NCBI RefSeq assembly: GCF_014203595.1
Contig: NZ_JACHJK010000007.1
Location: 310,001-374,000, forward strand
Length of the DNA stretch: 64,000 nucleotides
DNA from: Streptomyces echinatus
GTDB lineage: Bacteria > Actinomycetota > Actinomycetes > Streptomycetales > Streptomycetaceae
Reading direction: 5' to 3'
Shown one piece after another: positions 39,514 through 44,815 of the stretch. The notes beneath the pieces are model-generated. The model was not told where the DNA came from. It was given only the letters and a program-made list of their open reading frames with translations, and made no database searches. The first letter of the stretch is position 1. Each line of letters starts with the position of its first letter. Made by a program: the position numbers and the translations under genes.

Positions 39514-40080
39514 TCACCCGTACGTATCGCCGGGCCCGGTGCTCCCCGGAGCCCGCAGGGGGCCGTAGCGGCGGGCCGGGCCGCCGGGGTTGAGCACCTT
39601 GATCATCCGTACGCTGCCGTGCCCGAGATCCTCGTTGAGCCGGGCCACCAGCGCGGGGGCGAGCACGCGCAGCTGCGTCGCCCAGGCCGTCGAGTCGCAC
39701 TGGACGGTCAGCACCCGCTCGTCCTCGTCGTACCGCTGCGGCACGCAGTGCTTGGCCAGGTCCTCGCCGACGATCTCCGGCCAGCGGCCCATCACCCCGC
39801 CCACCGCGGCCGGGGTCTCCCATCCGCGCTCGTTGATCAGCCGGTTGATCGCCGCGCCCAGCGCCAACGGATCGCGTCCGTCGGCGCGCGCGCCGGAGCG
39901 CAGGCCGCCGCCCCGCCGCGCCTGCTTCTTCTGCCGTGCCGCGTCCCCACGCGCGCGTGCCTGTTCCTTCGCCGCGCGCAACGCCACGCGCGCGAGGTCG
40001 ACACCGGAGGGCTCCTGCTCGCTCCGGGCGCGGCCCGAGGCGTTCTTCCGGGCGTTCGGTGCGGGGTCGTCGGTGCTCAT
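39514..40080 (-). CDS. dciA: DciA-like helicase operator (DUF721)
   Basis: The 188-residue product overlaps the stop of recF by four bases (ATGA). The first 75 residues are basic and Ala-rich. The DUF721 domain follows (about 80-160), with [39 protein letters not shown] and [19 protein letters not shown], a KH-like fold. DciA proteins replace DnaC in most bacteria and help load the replicative helicase DnaB at the origin. Coupling to recF and dnaN, next to oriC, fits this role. Confidence 0.9.
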
Positions 40081-42466: not shown

Positions 42467-43597
42467 TCAGCCGCTGAGACGCACCGGCATGATCAGGTAC
42501 TTGTAGGCGTCGTCGGCCTCGGCGTCCAGCGCCGGCTTGCCGCTGAGCAGCGCCGGCTTCGTGGACGTGGTGAACGACAGCTGCGCCACCGGCGAGTCGA
42601 TCGCGCTCAGACCGTCCAGCAGGAACGTCGGGTTGAAGGCGATCGAGATGTCGTCGCCCTCCAGCTGGGCGTCGACCCTTTCCACAGCCTGTGCGTCGTC
42701 GCTGGAACCGGCCTCCAGGATCAGCACACCCTGCTCGAAGCTCAGCCGCACCGGGGTGTTGCGCTCGGCGACCAGGGCCACACGCTTGACCGCCTCCACG
42801 AACGGCGCGGTCTCGATCACGGCGACGGAGTTGAACTCGGTCGGGAACAGCGTCCGGTACTTCGGCAGGTCGCCCTCGAGCAGGCGGGTGGTCGTGCGCC
42901 GACCGGCCCCCTCGAAGCCGATCAGGCCCTCACCGGCACCGGCACCGGCCAGCGCCAGCGTGACGCTGTCCCCGGCACCCAGCGACTTCGCGGTGTCCAG
43001 CAGCGTCTTGGCGGGGACCAGGGCGACGGCGGAGGCGTCCGGGTTCTCCGGCTTCCACAGGAACTCGCGGACCGCGAAGCGGTAGCGGTCGGTGGAGGCC
43101 AGGGTGACCGTGTCGCCCTCGATCTCGATGCGCACACCGGTGAGCACCGGGAGGGTGTCGTCACGGCCGGCGGCGATGGCGACCTGGGAGACGGCCGCGG
43201 CGAAGACCTCGCCGGGGACGGTGCCGGTCGCGGTCGGCATCTGCGGCAGCGCCGGGTACTCCTCCACAGGCAGGGTGTGGAGTGTGAACCGCGAGGAGCC
43301 ACAGACCACCGTCGCCCGTACACCGTCTGTGGAAATCTCCACCGGCCGGTTGGGGAGGGCGCGGGAGATGTCGGCGAGCAGGCGGCCGGAGACCAGGACC
43401 GTGCCGTCCTCCTCGACCTCGGCCTCGACGCTCACCTTGGCGGAGACCTCGTAGTCGAAGCTCGACAGGCTCAGCTGGCCGTCCTCGGCCTTCAGCAGCA
43501 GGCCGGCGAGGACAGGCGCCGGCGGACGGGCCGGGAGGCTGCGTGCAGCCCACGCCACTGCCTCCGCGAGTACGTCGCGTTCCACCCGGATCTTCAC
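42467..43597 (-). CDS. dnaN: DNA polymerase III beta sliding clamp
   Basis: The 376-residue product starts at GTG 43597 (VKIRVERDVLAEAVAWAARS) behind AGGAGG. It is built of three clamp domains of about 120 residues. Marks include VSGRLLADISRALPNRPVEI in domain 1 and the C-terminal YKYLIMPVRLSG, which forms part of the pocket that binds polymerase and other clamp-binding peptides. The clamp holds polymerase III on DNA. The gene borders oriC on the side of the unwinding element. Confidence 0.97.
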   Translation of the reverse strand: MKIRVERDVLAEAVAWAARSLPARPPAPVLAGLLLKAEDGQLSLSSFDYEVSAKVSVEAEVEEDGTVLVSGRLLADISRALPNRPVEISTDGVRATVVCGSSRFTLHTLPVEEYPALPQMPTATGTVPGEVFAAAVSQVAIAAGRDDTLPVLTGVRIEIEGDTVTLASTDRYRFAVREFLWKPENPDASAVALVPAKTLLDTAKSLGAGDSVTLALAGAGAGEGLIGFEGAGRRTTTRLLEGDLPKYRTLFPTEFNSVAVIETAPFVEAVKRVALVAERNTPVRLSFEQGVLILEAGSSDDAQAVERVDAQLEGDDISIAFNPTFLLDGLSAIDSPVAQLSFTTSTKPALLSGKPALDAEADDAYKYLIMPVRLSG

Positions 43598-43799
43598 CGT
43601 AAGCCGCCTCCTGCTGTTGCTACTGAGTCCTCCGACTCGGTGTCACCGCCCACTGCGACGGGAAGGACACCGGGGACCAGTCTGACGCACCGCACTGACA
43701 GTAGGTGCCCGTCGGGGTCAAGTCGGTCCGGGCGGCAGCCGGACGCGAGACGGCGAGTTGTGCACAGGCCCCGCTTCAAAGCGATTGCCGAACTCTCTC

Positions 43800-44340
43800 T
43801 AGTTGGGAGTAGTAGTAGGGCCTGTGGATACCGTGGATAACCACGTTTGCCCAGCTCAGCGCGGGTTTTTTATCCACTGGGCCTGTGGGTGGAGGCAGTG
43901 GAAAACCGGGCCCGTCTGTGGAGAACAGAAAGTTCTGCACACATCGCCCACAGCCTGAGGGCAGTTCTCCCCAGCTGTGTCCCCAGGAATACCCAGGTTT
44001 CCCACACCCCAACCCGGCAGCTTCCTGTGACGCCTTTCACTCGACGCGGTGAGCGGGTGCGTCGGGTTGCCGAACAGTGGACAGCCATGTGGAGAAGCCG
44101 GGGATCGCTGGGGACAACCGCCCCCAGCCTGTGGGCGGCCGGTGGACAACTTCGTGCACAGGTTGTGGAACCTCGCGTTTTCCACAACCTGTGGAGATCG
44201 TTCGTCCACGATTCCACAGCCCCCTGAGCTGGGCCGTCGGGCTGGAACCAGCTTCCCTGTGGACGCAGTTCGGGACAACTCCACAGTCCCCAGGATGTGG
44301 ACGGAAGAAAGTCACCGAATCTGTGGAGAGTGGCCGTAAC
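43800..44340. other. oriC: oriC, chromosomal replication origin
   Basis: Between divergent-facing dnaN and dnaA lies a 1.2-kb gap free of genes, with about 16 DnaA-box-like sites in 540 bp. Examples are TGTGGATAC (43823), CGTGGATAA (43832), TTATCCACT (43870), TGTGGAGAA (43917, 44088), TGGGGACAA (44109), GGTGGACAA (44141), TGTGGAACC (44164), TTTTCCACA (44178), TGTGGAGAT (44190), TGTGGACGC (44258), TGTGGACGG (44296) and TGTGGAGAG (44322). Streptomyces origins are known for many boxes, mostly of weak consensus, which fits. Boxes occur in both orientations and in two groups either side of 43990. Confidence 0.95.
43809..43840 (-). other. Putative basal unwinding element: DnaA boxes, GC spacer, DnaA-trios
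   Basis: On the minus strand, TTATCCACG (43832-43840) and GTATCCACA (43823-43831) are directly adjacent, then GGCCC (43818-43822), then TAC three times (43809-43817). This is the same order and spacing as in the B. subtilis origin, where DnaA extends from boxes onto TAC/TAT trios to open DNA. A less GC-rich stretch (43780-43808) follows toward dnaN. Confidence 0.75.
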
Positions 44341-44527
44341 CAGGCAAGTAATCGAACACCGGATGGCCGGGGAGGAACGGCGCACAGGGCTGAGCGCGGC
44401 ACCGGGGACGGGCGCGAGGAGCGCCGAAGGGGCTTCGGAGGGGCCTTTGGGGGCCTCCGAGGGGCGCGCCGGAGGGTCGTCGCAGGGGTCGGACGGGCGT
44501 CGGGCGGGCGTCGGGCGGCGCTCGGAC

Positions 44528-44577
44528 AGCCCGGCTCGTGGTCCTCGGACAGAGCCCGGCTCGTGGTCCTCGGGCAG
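44528..44577. repeat. 25-bp tandem duplication
   Basis: AGCCCGGCTCGTGGTCCTCG plus GACAG (44528-44552) is followed at once by a copy (44553-44577) with one change. It lies in the gene-free, GGGCGTCGGGC-rich spacer 44341-44760 between oriC and dnaA, which has no DnaA boxes that I can see. Confidence 0.8.
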
Positions 44578-44760
44578 CCCGTCCGGCGGGCGTCGGGCAG
44601 GTGTCCGGGCGCCCTCTTGAGCATCGGCGGGCGGCGACGGGGGCGCGGTGCCGGTGGGGGCGTGGTGCCGGTGGGCCGGCCGGCGGCGGTGTGGACGGCG
44701 TTCCGGCAGGGCGGGAGGCGGACCCCGGACGGTCCCGCGGATCGGCCCCGGAACGCCGGA

Positions 44761-44793
44761 GGGCGCCCCGGGGATGCGTTCCCCGAGGCGCCC
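44761..44793 (-). terminator. Terminator of dnaA
   Basis: GGGCGCCCCGGGGA (44761-44774) and TCCCCGAGGCGCCC (44780-44793) pair with one mismatch around TGCGT, about 22 bases past the dnaA stop codon. Confidence 0.75.
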
Positions 44794-44815
44794 CGTGCGC
44801 CGGCGTACGGCGCGC

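Follow-up and report, generated by a model that had tools for sequence, protein, structure and literature searches.

A probable basal unwinding system in a Streptomyces-type chromosome origin and adenine-or-cytosine centres in natural DnaA-trios

The basal unwinding system (BUS) was established in Bacillus subtilis (PMC6669920), and Pelliciari et al. (2021, PMC8287927) predicted it in 1755 of 2070 species. Their search rule combines a DnaA box with at most two mismatches, an optional second box with at most four, a spacer of 0-16 nt (most commonly 13 nt) between box and trios, and at least three DnaA-trios of the form 3'-NAN-5', mostly GAT (PMC8287927). Deviant trios lacking the middle adenine were suspected in that study, and its available text names none (PMC8287927). 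In B. subtilis, the G and A of a trio are captured between adjacent DnaA subunits, A via its amine to Asn187 and G by Arg202 and Glu228, and the third base faces away (PMC10721633). An engineered central cytosine can replace the adenine in vitro, and in the cell it supports growth better than G or T, in keeping with the amine contact of Asn187 (Pelliciari et al. 2023, PMC10721633). In B. subtilis, DnaD has its site on the strand opposite the trios (PMC10201434). A 2026 review still defines the trio as NAN (PMC13220808), and a paper on Kocuria notes trios in actinobacterial oriC, giving no sequence in its available text (PMC12500396). The oriC of Streptomyces coelicolor and S. lividans has been described as 19 DnaA boxes in two groups, with a site for AdpA (PMC3411110, PMC4285127).

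A box, spacer and trio module upstream of dnaN

The window, that is, the whole 64-kb stretch of Streptomyces echinatus DNA that was analysed, carries dnaA and dnaN along with 6PGD-like, RecF/SMC-like, DciA and gyrB genes (Table 1). GC skew in 4-kb bins is negative in eight of the 11 bins up to 44 kb and positive in four of the five beyond, with four of the 16 bins as exceptions; the sign tends to change near 44 kb, as expected at an origin. The dnaA-dnaN spacer contains 25 DnaA-box-like sites (at most two mismatches to TTATCCACA or TTGTCCACA). None of these is perfect and nine have a single mismatch, both boxes of the module described below and seven others, and the module does not stand out by box strength as the preliminary description had it.

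On the minus strand, positions 43840-43807 read TTATCCACG GTATCCACA GGCC CTA CTA CTA CTC. The module consists of a pair of DnaA boxes in the same orientation, followed by a GC spacer and then by three 3'-GAT-5' DnaA-trios and a GAG. The trios are on the plus strand (3'-GAT GAT GAT GAG-5'), where they lead away from the boxes in the direction of dnaN; the gene lies about 210 bp downstream. The preliminary description had placed a box-GC-trio unit at the dnaN end, and both its sequence and its place are confirmed on the minus strand. It had marked the same DNA as trios, in the register TAC after GGCCC; because the DnaA-trio (3'-GAT-5') sits on the plus strand, its complement reads CTA, and the correct register is CTA after GGCC.

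Table 1. Features of the origin region, with positions counted from the first letter of the window
Feature	Position	Strand	Detail
dnaA	44816..46792	-	
dnaA-dnaN intergenic region (oriC)	43598..44815	.	1218 bp, GC 0.692
DnaA box 1, TTATCCACG, distal of the pair	43832..43840	-	1 mismatch to TTATCCACA
DnaA box 2, GTATCCACA, co-oriented, abuts box 1	43823..43831	-	1 mismatch
GC spacer GGCC, box 2 to trio 1	43819..43822	-	
Three DnaA-trios 3'-GAT-5' (TAG x3 on plus, CTA x3 on minus)	43810..43818	+	
Weak fourth trio 3'-GAG-5'	43807..43809	+	
Least stable 27-bp stretch of the spacer	43791..43817	.	nearest-neighbour energy
dnaN, downstream of the module	42467..43597	-	
DciA-family protein (PF05258)	39514..40080	-	

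Set beside the 2021 rule, the module has two co-oriented boxes with one mismatch each, 13 nt (box 1) and 4 nt (box 2) from the first trio, and a run of four NAN trios, and it lies in the chromosome origin, in a dnaA-dnaN spacer with 25 box-like sites. Among these 25 sites, three [G/A]A[T/A] trios within 16 nt are found solely after the module's box pair, and the published NAN rule likewise picks out this pair alone. In dinucleotide shuffles of the spacer, 0 of 2000 gave three such [G/A]A[T/A] trios. The string CTACTACTA occurs once in the 64-kb window, and TATCCACNGGNCCTACTAC, a near-complete pattern of the module, occurs once in the 9.39-Mb genome (reversed control, 0).

The stability minimum of the spacer overlaps the trios and the DNA just downstream of them. 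The ten lowest-stability 27-mers start at 43788-43797 and all overlap the trios; trios and weakest duplex coincide in part, even in this GC-rich origin. These data bear on the alternative that DnaA binds the module and the first melting occurs elsewhere in oriC, at another low-stability stretch or by an E. coli-like loop-back geometry, and the trios merely assist. The region is 69% GC, the 27-mer of rank 11, which starts at 44304, is also fairly unstable, and published oriC mutants of Streptomyces are cited as evidence that every DnaA box contributes, as does the spacer separating the two groups of boxes (PMC3411110). Melting elsewhere is nonetheless very unlikely, given that the least stable DNA overlaps the trios, that the trios do not vary and lie within the best-conserved 20-mer of the spacer (see below), and that no other box is accompanied by three trios.

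Conservation, DnaA residues and a model for opening

A dnaN gene was located in 101 of 101 same-genus genomes, and five more were added to give 106, of which 78 contributed the 79 loci of our genus sample (L039 and L081 belong to one genome). Many same-genus genomes also have a second DnaN-like match, at about 45-53% identity, and in the genome studied here there is a second, partial one with 34% identity (G000:C20:37455-38084).

The ten-base trio core CCTACTACTA is unchanged in 78 of 78 genomes, as is the TCCACA of box 2. In box 1, seven of nine columns show the same base in 76 or more of the 78 genomes, and the third (68) and ninth (64) vary. The central base of the fourth trio is A in 53 genomes, C in 16, G in nine and T in none (n=78). 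In the genus alignment of the spacer, positions 43828-43809 form the most conserved 20-mer, followed by 44084-44065. Two other stretches are at least 98.5% conserved in that alignment. The longest such run (17 bp), TGTCCACTGTTCGGCAA at 44067-44083 on the minus strand, contains a DnaA-box-like site plus an unexplained GTTCGGCAA. The second, a 10-bp run, CGTCAGACTG at 43678-43687 on the minus strand, lies between the module and dnaN and is perhaps a candidate dnaN promoter or regulator site.

A conserved block about 210 bp upstream of dnaN, with other conserved blocks near it (43687-43678), could itself be a dnaN promoter or regulator site, or a site of oriC repression, and not an unwinding element. 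Such a role would have to accommodate tandem DnaA boxes, a period of three and A/C variation at the trio centres, and a box-trio register that is kept across families and phyla although the distance to the dnaN match ranges from 68 to 636 bp (76 sites of the GTDB-wide scan described below). We regard it as extremely improbable. The invariance in 78 of 78 genomes is consistent with an in vivo need for boxes and trios, and, judged from its sequence, the module is a canonical and strongly conserved example of the established BUS type.

We aligned the DnaA of the window to B. subtilis DnaA (PDB 8btg). Residues E183, N187, I190, I193, R202, K222, E223 and E228 are identical, which includes all five base-capture residues of the BUS (N187, I190, I193, R202 and E228). 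Position 196, the third-base contact in B. subtilis, is Gly here and Asn there. Every readable DnaA sequence from the relatives examined (58 of 58 in one set, 62 of 62 in the other) has Asn187.

The helicase-loading limb of the Bacillus system (DnaD/DnaB/DnaI) looks different. PF07261 (DnaB_2), which we take to cover DnaD and which was the only DnaD model searched, has 0 matches in this genome; the positive controls B. subtilis and L. lactis both match. The genome encodes DciA, which is likely the helicase loader in place of DnaD/DnaB/DnaI, a role assigned by inference. The earlier proposal that the module gives the direction of helicase loading is an extrapolation, since the Bacillus loader limb was not found in this genome: PF07261 has no match and DciA is encoded.

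The module is very likely the origin-opening BUS of a Streptomyces-type chromosome, acting by capture of the DnaA-trio strand. A Bacillus-type module of boxes, GC spacer and trios at the dnaN end had been proposed from the start, and the proposal is borne out by its agreement with the 2021 rule, the genus-invariant trio core, the overlap with the stability minimum, the retained DnaA capture residues and the recurrence of the same frame across actinomycetes. The sequence, position, conservation, stability minimum, DnaA residues and A/C alphabet are observed directly, and we infer DnaA binding, oligomer growth, melting and a loader at the module. DnaA would bind both tandem boxes as double-stranded DNA. 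An ATP-DnaA oligomer would then extend 3'->5' on the plus strand across the trios, toward dnaN, with the leading G and A of every trio held by two neighbouring DnaA molecules. Capture could keep the strand unpaired at 43818-43807, and opening may extend to the adjoining low-stability DNA at 43806-43790. Helicase loading would follow, probably with DciA rather than DnaD/DnaB/DnaI. Several features call for caution in this BUS reading: the good trios number just three, which is the published minimum; the DnaA has Gly196, with Gln often replacing Arg202 in C-centred relatives; and, in the loci outside the genus described below, families f12, f22 and f29 depart from the A/C pattern and eight of 78 loci yielded no box pair above threshold.

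Central bases of DnaA-trios in other origins

Outside the genus, we sampled 78 loci from 115 same-class genomes with a dnaN match. Modules were anchored with a box-plus-spacer profile that excludes the trios, searched over 650 bp per locus. Tandem boxes with a period-3 array in the pooled sequences were found in 70 of the 78 loci (29 families). The eight loci left out had a box-profile score of at most 12 within the searched 650 bp; in L148, one of these eight, a good module lies immediately beyond that stretch. In family f29 (L156, L157), GTTAACACCGTTA or close variants replace the trios behind the tandem boxes, and there are no clear trios.

In the 70 loci, the central bases (A/C/G/T) are 61/8/0/1 in trio 1, 32/31/3/4 in trio 2, 24/27/15/4 in trio 3, 18/34/16/2 in trio 4 and 14/36/19/1 in trio 5. 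Trio 6 gives no comparable signal (14/5/25/26), and the period-3 signal covers five trios. We also considered other trio registers. The amino bases A or C occupy 76, 285 and 59 of 350 positions at offsets 0, 1 and 2, the centres being at offset 1; the share is highest there, and therefore the canonical register fits best. For T-G-A trios (3'-ACT-5'), and for these alone, a shifted NAN reading is available.

C outnumbers G at the centres by 136 to 53, though each makes up 33% of the downstream flank in the same loci. Counted per family, C exceeds G in 21, G exceeds C in six and two are tied (sign test p 0.006); f12 (G 10, C 6) and f22 (G 7, C 5) clearly break the pattern. In a class-wide pattern survey with open trio centres and one mismatch allowed, at least 252 of 383 genomes matched, and a reversed-pattern control gave about 48 matches in about 46 genomes. 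In the 64 listed zero-mismatch rows of this survey, G outnumbers C at trio 3 (25 to 21), and many of these rows are near-identical sequences from f15, f29 and f16; among the 34 unique trio strings of the listed rows, trio 3 is C in 18 and G in seven.

Changes at the centres were followed on a quick tree of 60 DnaA fragments from the 70 loci, with 10 rows that had no usable fragment omitted, and were counted from one Fitch (parsimony) resolution, not from a model-based estimate. A<->C accounts for 47 of 95 changes at trio centres (49%), compared with 79 of 587 downstream, 64 of 427 upstream and 20 of 132 in boxes and spacer (13-15%). At first trio bases, the commonest change is A<->G (30 of 66), and at third bases C<->T (21 of 51).

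We next extended the comparison to a GTDB-wide scan, with a pattern in which the centres of trios 2-4 may equally be C or G. It matched 99 stretches, and all 99 loci (100 sites) together have C at 290 and G at 10 of 300 constrained centres, as raw counts that ignore kinship. Analyses of position, group, NAN and DnaA used the 80 loci (81 sites) among the matches listed, which have C 235 and G 8. Among these listed matches, dnaN lies on the same strand within 700 bp downstream in 76 of the 81 sites, and a majority count per group (48 named groups) gives C 138 and G 6. The unconstrained trio 5 is C in 52 of the listed sites, A in 22, G in five and T in two, and trio 6 is never C in the 81. The hosts are mostly actinomycetes (Isoptericola, Nocardioides, Microtetraspora, Tsukamurella, Ornithinimicrobium and others); further hosts include Mariprofundus, Gemmatimonadota, Polyangium and two Clostridia MAGs. 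One match from Planctomycetota (L245) was counted regardless of its genomic place.

Mariprofundus-type genomes have two or three BUS-like copies (L168:4366 and L168:6047; G660:C91:20336, 22017 and 23025), and the two copies of L168 lie on either side of the dnaA match. The arrangement suggests a multipartite origin with several possible unwinding sites. Single phyla were also surveyed, again with open trio centres. In Zetaproteobacteria, 16 of 61 matched, 14 with box-CTATGA sites, and the control also gave 19 matches. In Gemmatimonadota (22 of 121) and Myxococcota (26 of 112), the matches were mostly chance-like strings with few convincing sites. With zero mismatches, a survey of a Clostridia-type phylum matched 6 of 249, mostly A-centred, and a phylum-draw survey matched 9 of 149.

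From these data, we consider it likely that the trio code is an amino centre, roughly 3'-[purine][A or C][T or C]-5', rather than NAN, and that cytosine-centred trios are natural. Many actinomycetes and at least some Zetaproteobacteria, Gemmatimonadota, Myxococcota and Clostridia would, on the same likely reading, use C-centres. The centre would drift back and forth between A and C because Asn187 of DnaA reads only the amino group, and the Streptomyces module would stand at the all-adenine end of the range.

The A/C alternation could instead come from GC pressure or trinucleotide slippage and not from recognition by DnaA: most hosts have GC-rich DNA, the trio array amounts to a simple repeat, and the number of A-centres falls weakly with locus GC (Spearman -0.25, p 0.04; 70 loci). 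Such a cause is very unlikely. C is strongly preferred over G in the scan, where both were equally permitted, and in the 70 loci despite equal C and G in the flank, A<->C is far commoner at the centres than at control sites, and the number of C-centres has no significant correlation with locus GC (Spearman 0.15, p 0.21; 70 loci). For that last reason we rejected GC adaptation as the cause of C-centres; GC may contribute in part, because the A-centre count falls with GC.

The amino-centre reading also changes what a search retrieves. Three consecutive NAN near a box, in any register, are found in 19 of the 70 actinomycete loci and 17 of the 81 listed sites of the GTDB-wide scan. In 14 of those 81 listed sites, trios 2-4 contain no A whatsoever, and therefore a NAN reading is irrecoverable in any register. 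Most of the C-centred sites examined escape the central-adenine rule.

In C-centred origins (L159-L238), DnaA position 202 is Gln in 39, Arg in 21, Lys in three and His in two of 65 readable sequences. Gln202 is possibly another way of reading the first trio base, and it falls outside what the B. subtilis findings given in PMC10721633 explain. We also considered whether absence of DnaD licenses C-centres. PF07261 is found in 0 of 12 non-Clostridia C-trio genomes tested, and the idea is weakened by its presence in both of the two Clostridia MAGs.

Comparison with described systems

The module presumably resembles the B. subtilis BUS letter by letter and in chromosomal order. Like that BUS (DnaA-box 6/7 and DnaA-trios), it has two co-oriented boxes, a GC spacer and 3'-GAT-5' trios, arranged from the dnaA side to the dnaN side, and the DnaA base-capture residues are identical. 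Unlike that BUS, which has six trios, it has three good ones; it lies in a region of 69% GC that has no strongly AT-rich DUE; and its genome has DciA and no match to PF07261. In B. subtilis, the trios have the order G-A-T, are preceded by two G:C pairs and include an odd trio 3 (PMC10721633).

As in the oriC of S. coelicolor and S. lividans, there are many DnaA boxes, several of them weak, and TTGTCCACA is the high-affinity box named for those species; the unwinding site is given no assignment in the available text of PMC3411110 and PMC4285127. The module offers a concrete candidate for the place of melting, open to direct test, in a Streptomyces-type origin that is GC-rich and has no classical AT-rich unwinding element. 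Relative to Pelliciari et al. (2021), the window satisfies the search rule and a BUS call is expected; the Streptomyces module may well already be in the supplementary table of that study.

Relative to Pelliciari et al. (2023), C-centres were engineered there and are found here in natural origins. In the DnaA-trio literature searched, supplements aside, we recognised no description of natural cytosine-centred trios. A preference for A or C in natural origins is what the amine-capture experiments in B. subtilis would predict; a mutant result, C standing in for A via its amine, becomes a prediction about evolution, one with which natural origins appear to comply. If this is true, a standard central-adenine search would overlook most C-centred unwinding sites, and the amino centre suggests a way to locate sites that escape it. 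The comparison likely adds to the described systems a general, directly testable rule: the trio centre is A or C, in agreement with the published chemistry.
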